64,000 nucleotides of DNA. Origin: Oceanobacillus timonensis (GTDB taxonomy: Bacteria > Bacillota > Bacilli > Bacillales > Amphibacillaceae). The stretch lies in NCBI RefSeq assembly GCF_900166635.1, contig NZ_LT800497.1:2012378-2076377 (forward strand), written 5' to 3'. Below the pieces are notes generated by a model that saw nothing but the letters and a program-made list of their open reading frames with translations, was not told the origin of the DNA and did no database searches. Numbering within the stretch: the stretch's first letter is position 1; each line of letters starts with the position of its first letter. This document shows, in pieces, positions 50,292-58,568 of the stretch. The position numbers and the translations under genes are program-made.

Positions 50292-50307
50292 AGTTAAACG
50301 TTTTTCT
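50292..50307. promoter_or_regulatory. LacI-type operator candidate O1
   Basis: agttaaacgtttttct has the central AACGTT and flanking half-site shared by the other operators of the block. It lies about 270 bases upstream of operator O2. Confidence 0.45.
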
Positions 50308-50578: not shown

Positions 50579-50890
50579 AATAGGAAATTATTTTTCTTGA
50601 TATATGAATTCCAATTATTAAGAAGAAATGAAATATACGGACGGAGGTGACTTAGCGAAATAACATAACAAATAGGAGAGAACAAGAAACAAACTCATTC
50701 AAATTTTATTTGATTTCGTAATCGTTTTCTCAACCAAGATAAAAGTGGAGCTAGATGCTTTGTGGCTGCATTTATGGAATGAAATGACGGTCTAATGACA
50801 TTGTAGACAAGGTTGTTAACGCCTTCCATAAATAGTAACGATAAAATGAGGGCTTCTAAGAAGAACTGTCGGGGATGGAGGTTAAATAAA
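50579..50890 (+). other. Long leader of dctP mRNA
   Basis: About 310 bases separate O2 from the dctP start. A ggaggtga site at 50643 leads only to an 11-codon or shorter frame. A poor cre-like sequence (50717-50730, two mismatches) is present. I see no known riboswitch. Confidence 0.4.
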
Positions 50891-51889
50891 GTGAAGATAA
50901 TTCGAAATGTAAGCGTTTTTGCAATTGTAGTATTAGCGATAGGGATTGTTGTTGCTTTCTTTACAACAAGCAATGCGATGACGGATGACACGATTACGAT
51001 TCGTTTTGGGCATGACCAAGTAGAGTCGAATGAAAGGCATATAGCAATAATGCATTTTAAAGAACTGGTAGAAGAGAGATCCGATGGGCATATGGAAGTG
51101 CAGGTTTATCCGAATAACCAGTTAGGATCTGAGTCGGAAATGGTTGAAAGCGTAGCATTAAATGATTTACAGATGGTTGCTGCAGCGGCTTACAGCCAAT
51201 ATAGTCCGGAAATTAGTATGCTTGAACTTCCATATTTATTTGATGATTATGAACAAGCTTGGGATTCATTGGATGGGGAAGTAGGAGATATCGTAGCTGA
51301 ACCGTTATTAGATGATAATTTAAGGATTATTTCGTACTTTGAAAATGGTTTTCGTCATATTACAGCCAATCATCCAATTGAAGAACCGGATGATTTAAAA
51401 GGAATAAAAATCCGAACGCCGGAGTTTCCTGTAAACGTGAATACGTTAGCTTCTTTTGGAGCAAATCCGACACCAATGTCTTTCGGAGAAGTGTATATGG
51501 GGTTGCAGCAAGGTACAATTGACGCGCAGGAAAATCCAGTTGCTAATACTTATGCAAATAAATTAAATGAAGTTCAAGATTATCTTATTATGACAGGTCA
51601 TCAATATACACCCCTTCCTGTTGCGATTGGAGATGAATTTTGGCAGTCTCTGACACCCGAAGAACAAGACATTATTGAAGAGAGTGCTGTAGAGACAGCG
51701 CAATATCATCGTGATTTATTGCGGGAAAATGAAGCGAAAATGATAGAAGAATTAGAAGAACAAGGTATGACAGTGATTGAAAATCCGGATACAGAGGCTT
51801 TTGAAGAAGCAGGGGAAGCCGTTTATGAACAGTTTAGAAATGCTTATGGGGATGAACTCTTAGACCAGGTTTTGGATGAGATAGAATAA
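50891..51889 (+). CDS. dctP: TRAP transporter solute-binding protein DctP
   Basis: This 332-residue extracytoplasmic receptor of a TRAP transporter has an N-terminal signal or anchor helix (SVFAIVVLAIGIVVAFF) and the DctP family blocks RFGHDQVESNERH, YPNNQLGSESEM, LPYLFDDYEQAW, LKGIKIRTPE and GTIDAQENP. The arginine of KIRTPE normally binds the substrate carboxylate. Start GTG 50891 lies nine bases after ggatggagg; the open frame from 50813 is unsupported. The downstream genes suggest a four-carbon acid sugar as ligand. Confidence 0.9.
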   Translation: MKIIRNVSVFAIVVLAIGIVVAFFTTSNAMTDDTITIRFGHDQVESNERHIAIMHFKELVEERSDGHMEVQVYPNNQLGSESEMVESVALNDLQMVAAAAYSQYSPEISMLELPYLFDDYEQAWDSLDGEVGDIVAEPLLDDNLRIISYFENGFRHITANHPIEEPDDLKGIKIRTPEFPVNVNTLASFGANPTPMSFGEVYMGLQQGTIDAQENPVANTYANKLNEVQDYLIMTGHQYTPLPVAIGDEFWQSLTPEEQDIIEESAVETAQYHRDLLRENEAKMIEELEEQGMTVIENPDTEAFEEAGEAVYEQFRNAYGDELLDQVLDEIE

Positions 51890-51904
51890 GGGGTGAGAAA
51901 AAAC

Positions 51905-52444
51905 ATGAAAGTGTTAAGATGGTTGGATGAGCATTTTGAAGAATATATTCTTGTTTTCTTAAGTGCTTTCACAGTAATTATCATATTTATGCAAGTGGTT
52001 ATGAGATATATTTTTGGCAACTCGCTTGCTTGGTCTGAAGAAATTGCAAGATATGCTTTTATTTGGCTGATTTACATTGGAGTAAGTTATGGAGTGAAGC
52101 GGAATAAACATTTAGGGGTAGACGCATTATCGATGCTATTCCAGCGGAAAGGAAAGTTAATCATTGCAATGATTGCGAATATTTCTTTCCTCATCTTTGC
52201 AGTAGTGATGACGTATTTTGGAATTGATATTGTTGCGAGGGTATCCAGAACATCAGCGGCGTTACAAATCCCGTTATTTTGGGTGTATCTGGCTCCGGTT
52301 GTAGGTATGCTGTTAACCTCTATTCGATTACTGCAAAAAATGGTCTATGATATGAAAGACTATCGATCTATGAAGAAAAACGAAAATGTAAATAATCAGG
52401 ATAGAAACGAATCCTTGGCAGGTCAGGAGGAGAAAACAGTATGA
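51905..52444 (+). CDS. dctQ: TRAP transporter small permease DctQ
   Basis: This 179-residue protein has four membrane helices, including VIIIFMQVVMRYIFGNSLAWSEEIARYAFIW-type DctQ signature residues (RYIFG, WSEE) and GVSYGVKRNKHL. The tail is polar. ATG 51905 is preferred over GTG 51893, which sits on the aagggg site. Its stop overlaps the dctM start by four bases. Confidence 0.88.
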   Translation: MKVLRWLDEHFEEYILVFLSAFTVIIIFMQVVMRYIFGNSLAWSEEIARYAFIWLIYIGVSYGVKRNKHLGVDALSMLFQRKGKLIIAMIANISFLIFAVVMTYFGIDIVARVSRTSAALQIPLFWVYLAPVVGMLLTSIRLLQKMVYDMKDYRSMKKNENVNNQDRNESLAGQEEKTV

Positions 52445-53709
52445 CACCGTTTATTTTATTTGGCACATTCTTTTTATTTATGGCGTTAACTGTTCCTATC
52501 GGAATTGCGCTAGGCATTGCCGGCCTTGTTACTGCCATGTATTCGGCAAATATATCAGTTACTTTTCTATCACAGGGGTTAGTGACATCGACAGATAATT
52601 TTGCATTAATGGCGATTCCGTTCTTTATTCTTGCGGGAGAAATCATGGGAAAAGGCGGTATATCCAACCGTCTGTTTGATTTAGCAAATGTTTTTGTCGG
52701 CAGGTATACCGGCGGTTTTGCGATGGCAGCTGTTGTTACTTCCATGTTTTTTGCGGCTATTTCCGGATCAGGTCCAGCAACCGTAGCTGCAATCGGGGGT
52801 ATTATGATTCCGGCGATGGTTGCGGAAGGCTATGATAAAAAATTTGCCACCGCTTTAATTGCAGCAGCAGGTTCATTAGGAATTATCCTGCCTCCAAGTA
52901 TACCGATGGTTTTGTATGGTATTTCAGCCAATGAATCCATTGGGGATCTATTTCTGGGCGGGATTATTCCAGGTTTATTGATTGGCGGATTAATTCTATT
53001 ATGGGCCTACATTTATTCGAAAAAGAAAGGCTATGCAGGAACTGGTGAATCGTTCAGTTTTAAAAAATTATTTCAGACGCTTAACCAAGCGAAATGGTCT
53101 TTACTGGTGCCGATCATTATCCTTGGTGGTATTTACGGCGGTATTTTCACACCTACAGAAGCTGCTGTTGTAGCTGTGGTCTATGCATTATTTGTAAGTA
53201 TGTTCTTGCATAAATCAATCAAATTTAAAGATTTGCATGCCATCTTTAGAAATGCAGCATTAAGTTCGGTAGCGATTTTAATTATTATTGGAACAGCCAA
53301 TGCATTTGGCACAATCTTGTCGATGGAAAGAATTCCACAGGCGTTTGCAGAAGGTTTCTTAACTGTTTCGCCTAATAGCATGGTTATTTTGCTAATGATT
53401 ATTATCATGTTATTAATTATTGGCTGTTTTATTGATACTGCCGCAGCAGTTATTATATTTACACCGATTCTTTATCCGGTCGCACTTGAAATTGGCATGG
53501 ATCCAATTCATTTTGGTGTTGTCATGATTGTTACTTTAGCAATTGGATTCATTACTCCGCCATTAGGAGTGAATTTATTTGTAGGATCCGGACTATCTGG
53601 TCTAAGTATGCCTGTGCTGGCCAAAGCGGTTATTCCATTCTTTTTTGTTATTTTGTTTGGTCTTCTTTTGATTGCTGCTATTCCGCAGCTAACAACGCTG
53701 TTCTTATAG
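52441..53709 (+). CDS. dctM: TRAP transporter large permease DctM
   Basis: This 422-residue Na+-coupled permease has about twelve helices. The family motifs are AIPFFILAGEIMGKGGIS, ISGSGPATVAAIGGIMIPAM, GIILPPSIPMVLYG, TPTEAAVVAVVYAL and TPPLGVNLFV. It overlaps dctQ through ATGA. With DctP and DctQ it forms one importer. Confidence 0.92.
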   Translation: MTPFILFGTFFLFMALTVPIGIALGIAGLVTAMYSANISVTFLSQGLVTSTDNFALMAIPFFILAGEIMGKGGISNRLFDLANVFVGRYTGGFAMAAVVTSMFFAAISGSGPATVAAIGGIMIPAMVAEGYDKKFATALIAAAGSLGIILPPSIPMVLYGISANESIGDLFLGGIIPGLLIGGLILLWAYIYSKKKGYAGTGESFSFKKLFQTLNQAKWSLLVPIIILGGIYGGIFTPTEAAVVAVVYALFVSMFLHKSIKFKDLHAIFRNAALSSVAILIIIGTANAFGTILSMERIPQAFAEGFLTVSPNSMVILLMIIIMLLIIGCFIDTAAAVIIFTPILYPVALEIGMDPIHFGVVMIVTLAIGFITPPLGVNLFVGSGLSGLSMPVLAKAVIPFFFVILFGLLLIAAIPQLTTLFL

Positions 53710-54541: not shown

Positions 54542-54559
54542 TATAAAAACGTTTAACCA
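54542..54559. promoter_or_regulatory. LacI-type operator O4
   Basis: tataaaaac-gtttaacca has the same CG-centred core with one good half-site, gtttaacc. It lies over the start point. Confidence 0.55.
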
Positions 54560-54585
54560 AATTAAAATAGATAGGAGTAATGATA

Positions 54586-55608
54586 ATGAGCGGAGATTTA
54601 AAAAAACCAGTTGTAGCTGTAACAATGGGAGATCCAGCAGGGATTGGACCGGAAATAACTGTAGACACGATGTTGGCTGAGAAGGTTTATGACGAATGTA
54701 ATCCCTTCCTTATTGGCTCTGTAGATATTGTTAAAAGAGCTTTAGATATTAAAAATAGTGATTTTAAAGTGAATAAAATTGATTCTCCATCACAAGCTGC
54801 ATTTACTTACGGTGTAATCGATGTTTTGGAGCCAAAAGAATATGATTGCTCACAAATTGAATTTGGGAAAGTGCAAAAATTGGCTGGAGAAATGTCCTAT
54901 GGCTATGTAACAAAATCCATTGAATTAGGATTAAATAAAGAAGTTGATATTGTTTCTACAGCTCCTATCCATAAAGAAGCAATTAAGCTGGCAGGTTGTA
55001 AACATGAAGGACATACAGAAATATTCGGTGATTTAACAAATTCGGATTATGCATTAACTATGTTTAACTGCCATAACTTGAAAGTATTCTTTGTCAGCCG
55101 GCATAAAGCATTGGTTGAAGCTTGCCGTTATGCGACAAAAGATGTTGTTTTAGATACATTGCATCAAATTGATACAGAACTAAAAGGTATTGGATATGAG
55201 CATCCGGAAATTGCACTGGCAGCATTAAATCCGCATGCTTCAGATAATGGACTATTTGGTACAGAGGAAAAAGACCATTTAATTCCAGCGGTTGAAGCAG
55301 CCAAAGAACAAGGAATGAATGTAGTCGGCCCTGTACCGGCTGATTCTATATTCCATTTAGGATTACAAGGCAAATATGATGCTATTTTATCGCTTTATCA
55401 TGATCAAGGCCATATTGCTTGTAAGACATATGATTTTGAAAAATCGATTACGATTACGTGGGGCCTGCCGTTTATGCGGAGTTCGGTAGACCATGGCACA
55501 GCATTTGACATCGCTGGAAAAGGCATTGCAGGGTCAGTAAGTATGATTGAGTCTACTTTAGTTCCTGTTCAATATTGGAAACAACAACAAAAAGCATTAC
55601 AAGCATAA
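54586..55608 (+). CDS. pdxA2: PdxA2-type 4-phospho-acid-sugar dehydrogenase
   Basis: This 340-residue NAD-dependent oxidative decarboxylase is of the PdxA family: TMGDPAGIGPEIT at the N-terminus, metal-binding His in KHEGHTEIF, SLYHDQGHIACK and a C-terminal DHGTAFDIAGKG. PdxA proper acts in vitamin B6 synthesis, but the PdxA2 group, found beside DUF1537 kinases, oxidises and decarboxylates 4-phospho-D-threonate or -erythronate to dihydroxyacetone phosphate. The neighbours here favour PdxA2. ATG 54586 is nine bases after ataggag; 54580 is too close. Confidence 0.88.
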   Translation: MSGDLKKPVVAVTMGDPAGIGPEITVDTMLAEKVYDECNPFLIGSVDIVKRALDIKNSDFKVNKIDSPSQAAFTYGVIDVLEPKEYDCSQIEFGKVQKLAGEMSYGYVTKSIELGLNKEVDIVSTAPIHKEAIKLAGCKHEGHTEIFGDLTNSDYALTMFNCHNLKVFFVSRHKALVEACRYATKDVVLDTLHQIDTELKGIGYEHPEIALAALNPHASDNGLFGTEEKDHLIPAVEAAKEQGMNVVGPVPADSIFHLGLQGKYDAILSLYHDQGHIACKTYDFEKSITITWGLPFMRSSVDHGTAFDIAGKGIAGSVSMIESTLVPVQYWKQQQKALQA

Positions 55609-55688: not shown

Positions 55689-55745
55689 TAAGGGGTTACT
55701 TCGTTCGTTTTCTAAAAAATGCAGTTATCAAAGCGAGGTGCACAC

Positions 55746-57095
55746 ATGTCCAAATTAGGTATCGTTGCTGATGATTTAACAGGTGCAACAACAGCAGGTG
55801 TCTTATTAGCAAGATCGAATATCCCTGTCGCTGCCTATTTTGATTCAGATAATTTATCTAAGGATAAAGAACAGGAAGCATTTATTTTAACAACAGATTC
55901 AAGGTCAATCAAAAAAGAAGAGGCAAAAGCAAGAGTTCAACAAGCTGTGATTCAATTAAAAGAAAACGGTGCCACCTATTTAGCTAAAAGAATTGATACA
56001 ACATTAAGGGGAAATATAGGTGCTGAAGTAGAAGCCATGCTAGAAATGATGGATGACGATGCTATTGGTATTATGGTTCCAGCAATGCCGCAATCTAAAC
56101 GGATTTTAGTAGGAGGATATTCGATTATTGATAATATCCCTTTATCACAAACTCCCGTAGCAAAGGATGTACGAACGCCTGTAGAAGAATCACATTGTCC
56201 TACCTTAATCAAAAATCAAACGGATTATCCTGTTGAAACCATTTCATTAAATACGATACTGGCCGGTAAAGCATCGCTGGAAAAACGGTTGCAAAAAGTC
56301 CGGGAGAGCGGTGCGAAAATCGTTATTGCCGATGCAGTGTCCTTGGAGCATATCGATGTAATCGCACAGGTTGTTTCAGGTTTAAAATGGAATGTACTGA
56401 TGATTGATCCAGGGCCATTTACAGAGAGAATGGCTTATTATAATGGATTTACGATGAAGGAAGAAGCGTTAAACACCAGTGCTGTTTCTACGGAGCAACA
56501 AAAAGGGACTGTTCTTGCCGTTGCTGGCAGTGCTTCCTCTGTAACCAAAGAGCAGATTCATCATTTAGCCAAACAGGAAAATGTGATTCAAATCCCAGTC
56601 GCAGCAAAAGATTTAGTGTGTTCTAATGAAACTTCCTCTAAAGAAATCAGACGCGTTATTGATGTAGCGGTAAACCATTTAAAAGATACTTCTCCGCAGG
56701 CGCTAATTATCGAAACATCTGTAACAAATGAACGGGTGGATTTAAAGGCCGAGGAGAGAAGGAACGGTTTATCCCTTGGGGACGCTGCTGATAATATCAA
56801 TAAAGCACTCGGCGAAATTACAAAGGGCATATTATTGCAGACATCTAAAGTGAAAGGGATATATATGACAGGCGGAGACACCATGGTTCATATTTTGAAA
56901 ACACTGGAAGCAGTTGGAATTAAATTGCTGGACTATGTTATCCCACAGGCCGATTTAGGGATTGTTATCGGTGGTCATTCAGATGGGCTGGTTGTCGTTG
57001 GGAAAGGCGGTTTAACAGGATCTGTCCAGACAGCGGCAGATATTGTTGAACGAATTTGTAAAGAGGCAAGTGTTCGAGAGTTGATTGAGAATTGA
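55746..57095 (+). CDS. dtnK: DUF1537 four-carbon acid sugar kinase (DtnK/OtnK-like)
   Basis: This 449-residue kinase phosphorylates a four-carbon acid sugar at C4. The N-terminal substrate domain begins GIVADDLTGATTAGVLL, has TTDSRS and KRIDTTLRGN; the C-terminal nucleotide-binding domain has YMTGGDT and GHSDGLVVVGKGG. These match DUF1537 kinases such as D-threonate (DtnK) and D-erythronate (OtnK-like) kinases. The pdxA2 partner favours one of these two substrates. ATG 55746 follows gcgaggtg; the frame is open to 55719. Confidence 0.87.
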   Translation: MSKLGIVADDLTGATTAGVLLARSNIPVAAYFDSDNLSKDKEQEAFILTTDSRSIKKEEAKARVQQAVIQLKENGATYLAKRIDTTLRGNIGAEVEAMLEMMDDDAIGIMVPAMPQSKRILVGGYSIIDNIPLSQTPVAKDVRTPVEESHCPTLIKNQTDYPVETISLNTILAGKASLEKRLQKVRESGAKIVIADAVSLEHIDVIAQVVSGLKWNVLMIDPGPFTERMAYYNGFTMKEEALNTSAVSTEQQKGTVLAVAGSASSVTKEQIHHLAKQENVIQIPVAAKDLVCSNETSSKEIRRVIDVAVNHLKDTSPQALIIETSVTNERVDLKAEERRNGLSLGDAADNINKALGEITKGILLQTSKVKGIYMTGGDTMVHILKTLEAVGIKLLDYVIPQADLGIVIGGHSDGLVVVGKGGLTGSVQTAADIVERICKEASVRELIEN

Positions 57096-57144
57096 ATGCA
57101 TTATTAGTAATCGGATGCATTTGTCCCACTGGAGATTATATTAA

Positions 57145-57191
57145 AAACATGTAAAAAACCATCAATCTGCTTGATGGTTTTTTACATGTTT
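57145..57191 (+). terminator. Terminator after dtnK
   Basis: The arms aaacatgtaaaaaaccatca and tgatggttttttacatgttt form a perfect long stem with a 7-base loop. It may also act on the leftward HPr-like gene. Confidence 0.9.
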
Positions 57192-57221
57192 GATTTTGTG
57201 CAATGAAAAGCTGTATGTAGA

Positions 57222-57488
57222 TTATTCTCCTCCAAAAAAGCGGATAATCTCATTAACAGCGTCCTCGGCATCTTTTCCTTCTGCCCGTACAGTAGCTTCG
57301 ACACCATTTCGCAGTTGCAGCGTCGCAAGACCCAAGATGCTTTTCGGGTTCACTTCATGGATTTGATTTCCAGATTGGTTTCGGATGAATACTTCACAAT
57401 CATATTTTTGCAATAAGTAACTTAATTCAATAATGGTCTGTTCTTCACTAATATGAATAACGGTGCTTTTTTGAAATGATGATATAAT
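57222..57488 (-). CDS. HPr/Crh-like protein lacking the active-site histidine, non-canonical start
   Basis: The frame contains the HPr regulatory-serine block NPKSILGLATL and C-terminal GKDAEDAVNEIIRFF, so the fold is HPr-like. No TGIHARPA motif is present; the matching region reads ISEEQTII, so His15 phosphorylation is impossible, as in Crh. A TTG at 57413 would cut off the first third and has no ribosome site. The frame continues upstream to a strong taggaggag, where only ATT (57488) or ATA (57485) follow, giving 87-88 residues, the normal HPr length. It lies 72 bases after lacI on the same strand. Confidence 0.65.
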   Translation of the reverse strand: MISSFQKSTVIHISEEQTIIELSYLLQKYDCEVFIRNQSGNQIHEVNPKSILGLATLQLRNGVEATVRAEGKDAEDAVNEIIRFFGGE

Positions 57489-57544
57489 AATCTCCTCCTA
57501 AAATGAATCCTACCTAAATTATATAGATAAAAAGCGCACATGAA

Positions 57545-57562
57545 AAGAAAAACGTTTAACTT
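57545..57562. promoter_or_regulatory. LacI-type operator-like site O5
   Basis: aagaaaaac-gtttaactt has the CG-centred AAACGTTTAA core between lacI and the HPr-like gene. It could control a separate transcript of the latter. Confidence 0.45.
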
Positions 57563-58568
57563 AACAGCCGCAGGATTTTCTTTTTATCAAATAAGTAGGC
57601 ACAATCACTTTGTTCATGTAATCTGGATTATTTATTTTATTTAAGAGCATATCAAAAGCTGTTCTCCCCATTGTCTCTGCAGAAGCGCTAATGGTTGTGA
57701 TCGGACGGTTAATAATAGAAGCTGACGGAAAATCACCGAAACCAATCACTGCCATCTCATTAGGTATGGATACGTTCATCTCGTTCAATGCAGAAATAGC
57801 ACCGATTGTCATGGAATCATTCAGAAGGAACATAGCAGTAATATCCGGCTGATTTGCAATCATTTTTTTAACTGCTTTCTCGGCACCCTGAACAGTCGAT
57901 TCTCCATCAATAATTTGCTCCGGATCTAACGTTAATCCTTCTTGTTCCATAGCAGCTTTAAAACCTTTAATCCGGTTGAAGGTTGGTCCGATATCATCCA
58001 TTGAATAAACAACCACCATGTTTTTATGTCCGTGTGCTAAAAAGTGTTTCGCTGCATCAAATCCGGCCTGGTAGTCATCCTGATAAACCATGGGCGTGTC
58101 CGAAAGCGCATCATGATATCTACTGATTAAAACGATAGGCAAATTCTTCATAATGTTATGTATATCATATGGAAATGGCTTGGAATAATTGGCAGCAGGG
58201 GAGAGAATAATACCATCCACCATCTGGGAACTGAACAATTTTAAAGTAGCTTCTTCATAATCCACATCTTCATTTGTATTCACAAAAAGCAGGTTATAAT
58301 TCATTTCTTTTGCTCTAAGGGAAATAGCGTTTATATATTCTGTGACAAATGAGTCCGGAAAGCTTGGTATAATCAGACCGGCTGTTTTTGTAGTATTATT
58401 TCTCAAATTTTTTGCGGAATAGTTAGGTACATAATTATATTTATTGACGATGTCCATGACACGATTATACGTTTCTTCCGTGATTTTTTTACTGCCATTG
58501 ATTACATGAGAAACGGTAGTTACAGATACACCAGCTTCTTTAGCTATCTCTTTCATTGTGATACGCAT
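57561..58568 (-). CDS. LacI-family transcriptional regulator
   Basis: This 335-residue repressor has an N-terminal LacI helix-turn-helix (MKEIAKEAGVSVTTVSHVINGSKKI, residues 5-29), a hinge with NYVPNYSAKNLRN, and a periplasmic-binding-like ligand domain (TAGLIIPSFPDS, HGHKNMVVV, GFGDFPSASIINRPITTI). It closes the catabolic block and probably represses dctPQM and pdxA2-dtnK through the AACGTT operators. Its own leader contains half-sites cgtttaac (58593-58600) and acgttta (58608-58614) after a TATAAT -10 (58642-58647), suggesting autoregulation. ATG follows agaggtg. Confidence 0.9.
   Translation of the reverse strand: MRITMKEIAKEAGVSVTTVSHVINGSKKITEETYNRVMDIVNKYNYVPNYSAKNLRNNTTKTAGLIIPSFPDSFVTEYINAISLRAKEMNYNLLFVNTNEDVDYEEATLKLFSSQMVDGIILSPAANYSKPFPYDIHNIMKNLPIVLISRYHDALSDTPMVYQDDYQAGFDAAKHFLAHGHKNMVVVYSMDDIGPTFNRIKGFKAAMEQEGLTLDPEQIIDGESTVQGAEKAVKKMIANQPDITAMFLLNDSMTIGAISALNEMNVSIPNEMAVIGFGDFPSASIINRPITTISASAETMGRTAFDMLLNKINNPDYMNKVIVPTYLIKRKSCGC

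Follow-up and report, generated by a model that had tools for sequence, protein, structure and literature searches.

A Histidine-Less HPr-Like Protein of Bacillales Is Linked to One TRAP Transporter Clade and Likely Starts at AUA in Oceanobacillus

Results and Discussion

Within a 64,000-nucleotide stretch of the Oceanobacillus timonensis genome (hereafter the window), we found a gene for an HPr-like protein that has an acidic residue in place of the phosphorylatable His15, keeps the Ser46 block, and has tripartite ATP-independent periplasmic (TRAP) transporter genes close by, which places it in a proposed TRAP-linked subfamily of HPr homologs. As far as our searches show, an HPr-like subfamily accompanying one TRAP clade is undescribed in the literature searched. 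We tentatively propose, without regarding it as the probable answer, that the protein may be a dedicated HPr kinase (HPrK)-controlled catabolite switch of aldonate uptake by the TRAP transporter. The features of the locus are collected in Table 1.

Table 1. Features of the window around the HPr-like gene
Feature	Position	Strand	Basis or remark
TRAP-side operator copy	50293..50306	+	exact GTTAAACGTTTTTC; upstream of TRAP operon, about 0.5 kb before dctP frame
TRAP solute-binding protein DctP	50813..51889	+	PF03480, 307 bits
TRAP small membrane subunit DctQ, charged C-terminal tail	51893..52444	+	PF04290; alignment
TRAP large membrane subunit DctM	52441..53709	+	PF06808, 395 bits; in HPr-linked DctM clade
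Operator copy upstream of pdxA	54544..54557	-	1 mismatch to GTTAAACGTTTTTC
PdxA-family dehydrogenase	54580..55608	+	NCBIfam PRK03743, 530 bits
DUF1537 four-carbon acid sugar kinase (DtnK-like)	55719..57095	+	PF07005/PF17042
HPr-like gene	57222..57485	-	ATA codon to stop, 87 codons; Glu at His15 column; Ser49 = HPr Ser46
Proposed AUA start codon	57483..57485	-	aligns with first Met in Gracilibacillus and Alteribacillus
Shine-Dalgarno core AGGAGG	57494..57499	-	within longer tract TTTAGGAGGAGATT; read in window
LacI-type operator GTTAAACGTTTTTC	57547..57560	-	exact; between lacI stop and HPr-like gene
LacI-family regulator, not CcpA	57561..58568	-	ccpA model 151 bits vs cut-off 442

An HPr-Like Protein with an Acidic Residue in Place of His15

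The minus-strand open frame extends from a stop just 5′ of a Shine-Dalgarno site as far as the stop at 57222, and its translation contains ..EEIIISSFQKSTVIHISEEQTIIELSYLLQKYDCEVFIRNQSGNQIHEVNPKSILGL... Like HPr (PtsH), the protein is recognized by the Pfam profile PF00381 (49.7 bits; cut-off 23) and is predicted to adopt the HPr fold, its best structural matches including those of Crh; unlike HPr, it scores below the cut-off of the HPr-family model TIGR01003 (36.6 against 47.9 bits) and lacks both the phosphorylatable histidine and the GLHARP motif, which we did not find in it. In the alignment, Glu14 occupies the His15 column and Ser49 corresponds to Ser46 of HPr, which agrees with the original prediction of a gene without the His15 motif that keeps the Ser46 block. 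Because an acidic residue replaces His15, the protein cannot be a PTS phosphocarrier, as had also been claimed. Pairwise dN and dS were used to work out dN/dS ratios over codons 2-87, which lie between 0.025 and 0.043 in all 10 pairs from five Oceanobacillus genomes and therefore indicate strong purifying selection on the gene.

The same prediction saw in the locus the arrangement of Crh, and this identification fails. Whereas Crh combines Gln15, Arg17, and Ser46, the HPr-like protein has Glu at position 15 and Gln at position 17 and shares only Ser46 of the three; the two proteins also differ by a three-residue deletion and a four-residue insertion in the alignment. The Gln15 Crh-type gene of the window's genome is at a separate locus, preceded by a gene that we take to be whiA; Crh is encoded behind whiA, and the HPr-like gene instead adjoins TRAP genes. 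A further, shorter HPr-like protein without the His15 motif but with KSIMG kept is encoded in the same data (L004:1468-1713, minus strand), next to what is presumably a DhaM/EIIA-man-like protein.

Residues Conserved across the Family

A search with the single protein detected five relatives and a profile search 39; a wider profile gave 211 relatives at E <= 1e-12, the best 120 of which were inspected. Many organisms among the matches listed are salt- or alkali-loving Bacillaceae, and Sporosarcina and Cytobacillus also occur among those of the wider profile. The family is present in 49 of 397 Bacillales genomes and in eight of 398 genomes drawn from the class. In the window's own taxonomic family, a loose threshold gave HPr-like matches in 42 of 159 genomes, 11 of them above 70 bits. 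From this last search, G070 and the rows of 37-47 bits were not taken up; most of those rows match only the C-terminal two thirds and are probably other HPr-family genes.

Residue conservation was assessed in an alignment of 97 rows (64 stretches and 33 database proteins), three of which repeat others in the core, and the counts given here use the 94 distinct sequences. One ordinary His15 HPr (L010) was dropped, and a broken copy (L136) was excluded from the residue counts and retained for the context counts. That copy (G066:C66:68893-69111) has an internal stop, lies directly behind the P-Q-M genes of a TRAP operon, and comes from a genome of the same genus as the window.

The His15 column contains Glu in 84 sequences, Asp in nine, and Ser in one, so that 93 of the 94 are acidic at this position. 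The Pro18 column is Thr throughout (94/94), and the Arg17 column is Gln in 72 sequences, with Arg kept in only two. The Ser46 block is retained: Ser46 and Gly49 are invariant (94/94 each), Lys45 is found in 92 sequences, and the Ile47, Met48, and Met51 positions remain hydrophobic. By these counts, the surface through which HPr meets its partners was rewritten and has since stayed fixed, with the Ser46 block kept. Ser46 is also kept in HPr proteins of bacteria without HPrK, and its conservation may therefore be structural.

TRAP Transporter Genes Are the Most Constant Neighbors

In the window, DctM is encoded about 3.5 kb from the HPr-like gene. We compared the context in 66 stretches, comprising 60 from genomes, five further loci (L005-L009), and the window. 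TRAP genes are found in 61 of the 66 and form one uninterrupted same-strand run with the HPr-like gene in 53; DctM is present in 60 and directly upstream of the HPr-like gene in 22. Two stretches (L126 and L127) contain no TRAP gene. Every one of the 60 carrier genomes tested encodes DctM, with one to at least 24 genes per carrier genome (median 6), and the number of these genomes expected by chance to have a DctM within 8 kb is 1.77 of 60, a figure for which the DctM counts of four genomes are lower bounds. Three genomes outside the 60 tested carriers (G676, G723, and G580) have DctM in the survey of 397 Bacillales genomes. TRAP transporters are numerous in the window's genome, given its 18 DctM matches.

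The TRAP transporter is thus the most constant neighbor of the family, and the other neighbors vary. RpiR regulators are found in 23 of the 66 stretches, and, with one representative taken per cluster, the neighbors include galactonate dehydratase, KDG kinase, KDPG aldolase, gluconokinase, a relative of 6-phosphogluconate dehydrogenase, an AEC-type permease, and the PdxA-DUF1537 kinase pair. These enzyme families point to sugar-acid pathways. The PdxA-family dehydrogenase of the window probably acts in four-carbon acid catabolism, and the DUF1537 kinase scores 237 bits with the D-threonate kinase model, below its cut-off of 450.

Nearly all linked DctM proteins belong to one clade. A quick tree was made of 88 DctM proteins, 57 linked (the stretches, out of 66, with a DctM longer than 300 residues) and 31 unlinked, 20 of the latter chosen among best-scoring rows and not at random. 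One branch with a support of 97 holds 55 of the 57 linked and two of the 31 unlinked proteins; of the linked proteins outside it, that of L132 joins just outside and that of L081 is found elsewhere. The linked or unlinked label changes four times on the tree, against 25.6 times in shuffles. The two unlinked proteins inside the branch (L161 from G688 and L163 from G873) are each a second copy within a carrier genome, and the single HPr-like match of each of these genomes in the Bacillales survey lies away from them. By eye, the charged C-terminal tail is longer in many of 21 linked DctQ proteins than in most of 13 unlinked ones, with exceptions in both directions: L133 and L135 are linked and lack it, and L161 and L163, unlinked members of that clade, have it. 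Linked genes share a history, and the agreement with a DctM clade is therefore no proof of contact.

A Tentative Model for HPrK Control of TRAP Uptake

HPrK is encoded in 394 of the 397 Bacillales genomes, and the three genomes lacking a match, each 90% complete or less, all carry the HPr-like protein. The window's genome has two HPrK genes. The second (L174:8370-9290; G000:C3, about 158.9-159.8 kb) has both HPrK domains over the cut-off and lies about 6 kb from a TRAP cluster that has its own LacI and that, from its enzyme labels, we take to be of hexuronate type. A private kinase for the HPr-like family was considered and rejected, as a second HPrK copy shows no association with it (five of 49 carriers and 44 of 348 other genomes, a tally made by hand in which two genome draws were taken as the same 397 genomes).

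We favor an HPrK-controlled TRAP regulator because HPrK is near-universal, the TRAP transporter is the most constant neighbor, and both P-Ser-HPr and TeaD offer precedents. According to excerpts of the respective reports, P-Ser-HPr inhibits ABC maltose uptake (PMC2860498) and TeaD modulates the TRAP transporter TeaABC (PMC9006882). The HPr-like protein would be made together with a TRAP transporter of sugar acids of the gluconate, galactonate, or threonate type. During active glycolysis, HPrK would phosphorylate its Ser46 equivalent, and the phospho-form would bind the cytosolic side of DctQ/DctM through the old HPr face and slow uptake, a form of inducer exclusion. The sign of the effect could also be the opposite, with unphosphorylated HPr-like protein needed for full TRAP uptake. 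In Oceanobacillus, the amount of protein may be kept low by a LacI-type operator and by initiation at AUA, which follows a strong Shine-Dalgarno site. The narrower proposal, in which HPrK-driven phosphorylation of Ser46 in a His-less HPr paralog directly gates a TRAP transporter, is conceivable but on the doubtful side.

The precedents are partial. P-Ser-HPr in Lactobacillus casei and Lactococcus lactis resembles the proposed system in that Ser46 phosphorylation inhibits uptake of a less favored substrate, but its target is an ABC transporter, whereas here a dedicated paralog would act on a TRAP transporter. TeaD is likewise encoded with the transporter that it regulates, an analogy of working only, since the excerpted report describes an ATP-binding, UspA-like member of the universal stress protein superfamily (PMC9006882), unlike the HPr-like protein. 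We did not find HPr-type control of a TRAP transporter in a literature search made mostly outside subscription papers, and TeaD was the only dedicated regulator of these widespread transporters that we met there. If the proposal is true, PTS-type carbon signaling reaches a secondary, ATP-independent transporter family, and in Oceanobacillus AUA initiation would set the dose of the switch, which could respond to IF3 and growth. Because a His-less HPr is tied to one TRAP clade in dozens of Bacillales genomes, HPrK control of TRAP transport becomes directly testable.

The residue pattern could instead be read as that of a Crh-like corepressor that acts with CcpA, and not with the local LacI, when phosphorylated at Ser46 and so provides the aldonate regulon with a catabolite repression of its own, or of a decoy for HPrK and CcpA in competition with HPr and Crh. 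The invariant Ser46 with its hydrophobic surroundings fits such a role, as do the presence of CcpA and HPrK and the Crh structures among the fold matches. The loss of Arg17 and the acidic residue at position 15 do not, and such a role would not explain a link with one TRAP clade instead of with CcpA targets at large; we judge this reading unlikely.

Rather improbable, too, is a contact independent of Ser46, such as that made by a fixed accessory subunit or an assembly factor of the TRAP membrane complex, with the acidic residue at position 15 mimicking phospho-histidine. Such a role would suit the rewritten and fixed face (Glu or Asp at the His15 column, Thr at the Pro18 column) and the uninterrupted runs with TRAP genes, but most TRAP genomes manage without the HPr-like protein (DctM is encoded in 313 of the 397 Bacillales genomes and the HPr-like protein in only 49), and two unlinked DctM proteins fall inside the linked clade.

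A Likely AUA Start Codon in Oceanobacillus

The HPr-like gene had been predicted to have no canonical start behind a strong Shine-Dalgarno site, and this is what the window contains: ATT, ATT, and ATA come next in frame after TAGGAGGAG, and no ATG, GTG, or TTG occurs in frame ahead of a TTG at 57413. The ATA stands 8 nt after AGGAGG. It is found at this position in five of five Oceanobacillus genomes with an intact gene, in which the Shine-Dalgarno tract is also aligned, one genome reading GGGGGAG. In Gracilibacillus DNA, ATG takes the place of the ATA, and the Alteribacillus protein has its initial Met there. Of the 66 stretches, five have ATA here, 60 carry ATG, GTG, or TTG at roughly the same position, and one is broken. 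In three of the five Oceanobacillus genomes, one of them that of the window, neither ATG nor GTG nor TTG occurs from the upstream stop as far as the conserved N terminus; in the remaining two, an ATG precedes the Shine-Dalgarno site, six codons upstream. A database protein from O. neutriphilus (P0001) begins at that upstream ATG, and it illustrates how annotation misplaces noncanonical starts.

Other start positions were rejected. The original prediction allowed ATT or ATA as the start; the ATA is supported by relatives, and the second ATT (57486-57488), at which the predicted gene begins, drops out because it is not conserved, being CCT, ACC, ACC, and ACT in the other Oceanobacillus genomes. 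The first ATT (57489-57491) is conserved in the five genomes but is an improbable start only 2 nt from AGGAGG. The TTG at 57413, named beforehand as the start that homologs might use, is not used by them: the relatives begin with Met upstream, and codons 2-23 are under selection, with dN of 0.019-0.121 and dN/dS of 0.025-0.20 in five pairs, dS being saturated in the other five.

Conservation of the ATA is by itself a weak argument, because the lacI genes of these genomes, used as a control, have identical codons in 11 of 29 invariant Ile columns, three of them all ATA. No RNA structure beyond chance was detected at the start site (z -0.01). The case for an AUA start is made by its position and by the relatives, and with no canonical start, a conserved AUA, and good Shine-Dalgarno spacing, the gene in Oceanobacillus likely starts at the AUA in Table 1, as judged from comparison of the genomes.

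Conserved AUA starts are rare, though not unprecedented. Excerpts of a study of Staphylococcus aureus (PMC13009471) describe AUA starts with an extended Shine-Dalgarno site for infC and ccpN, the latter conserved with Bacillus subtilis; citZ is reported to start at AUA too, and AUA-start reporters gave about 10-30% of AUG. The likeness to the HPr-like gene lies in the AUA with a strong Shine-Dalgarno site and, for ccpN, in a carbon-control function like that proposed for our candidate. The S. aureus starts were shown, according to the same excerpts, by Ribo-Ret and reporters (PMC13009471), whereas the Oceanobacillus start is proposed by comparison only. The Oceanobacillus gene would be a conserved, apparently AUA-initiated carbon-control candidate besides ccpN and infC.

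Loss of the start codon, with the Oceanobacillus gene decaying or silent, would account for the lack of a canonical in-frame start in three of the five genomes and would be in keeping with the internal-stop copy in G066. We consider it very improbable in view of the low dN/dS of codons 2-87 in all ten pairs, the conservation of the operator and Shine-Dalgarno tract, and the AUA activity reported for S. aureus.

The infC gene of the window's genome (L149, about 1495) has an apparent ATT start after cggaggtgg (cggaggtggccggctATT), which would be a second noncanonical start in this genome.

The Neighboring LacI Regulator and Its Operators

An operator-like site had been noted between lacI and the HPr-like gene, and the exact GTTAAACGTTTTTC found there recurs in the window (Table 1), where three sites of this type occur at no more than one mismatch against 0.01 expected. 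The five aligned Oceanobacillus intergenic regions share an identical operator ahead of the HPr-like gene, and an operator upstream of pdxA is also present in L005, L006, and L008, the three searched.

The LacI protein had been put forward as the dedicated partner of the HPr-like protein. The window's genome has its own CcpA (497 bits), and in an alignment with it the LacI protein has Asp for Arg and Leu for Thr of MRLLT. In CcpA, as described in excerpts of two reports, Arg303 contacts the phosphoserine and Thr306 transmits the switch (PMC6155242), and for B. subtilis CcpA, R304 is named as the contact (PMC4591507). The LacI protein lacks equivalents of Arg303 and Thr306 and so does not qualify as a corepressor partner of the CcpA type. 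A dedicated corepressor role with the neighboring LacI is therefore scarcely credible and was rejected, even though lacI adjoins the HPr-like gene on the same strand with an operator between them and this arrangement is kept in five Oceanobacillus genomes: the LacI of the window's cluster is found in only 11 of the 66 stretches, against 61 for TRAP genes, two Gracilibacillus stretches (L133 and L134) keep the HPr-like gene without such a LacI, and the phosphoserine-contact Arg and the switch Thr are both replaced.

Three Oceanobacillus loci (L006-L008, from O. neutriphilus and two O. sojae records) have no TRAP gene in their 8-kb flanks or in a further 17 kb downstream. Elsewhere, their genomes encode a DctM of 93-94% identity, and the HPr-like gene, LacI, and pdxA-dtnK remain together, so that the TRAP transporter is kept in trans. 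At these separate TRAP clusters, we found no copy of GTTAAACGTTTTTC at one mismatch or fewer and only two-mismatch sites of the AATCGTT type; coregulation with the TRAP genes is therefore supported in the window and not in these three genomes. The separation counts partly against a TRAP regulator.

The separate clusters with the AATCGTT-type sites are L192 and L194 (O. sojae) and L193 (O. neutriphilus). L192 has a LacI-like gene of its own, and the genes upstream in all three clusters are presumably a split transketolase. In the window, the region between dtnK and the HPr-like gene contains an inverted repeat, noticed by eye at 57135-57195, that has T-runs on each strand and is apparently a bidirectional terminator shared by the two.
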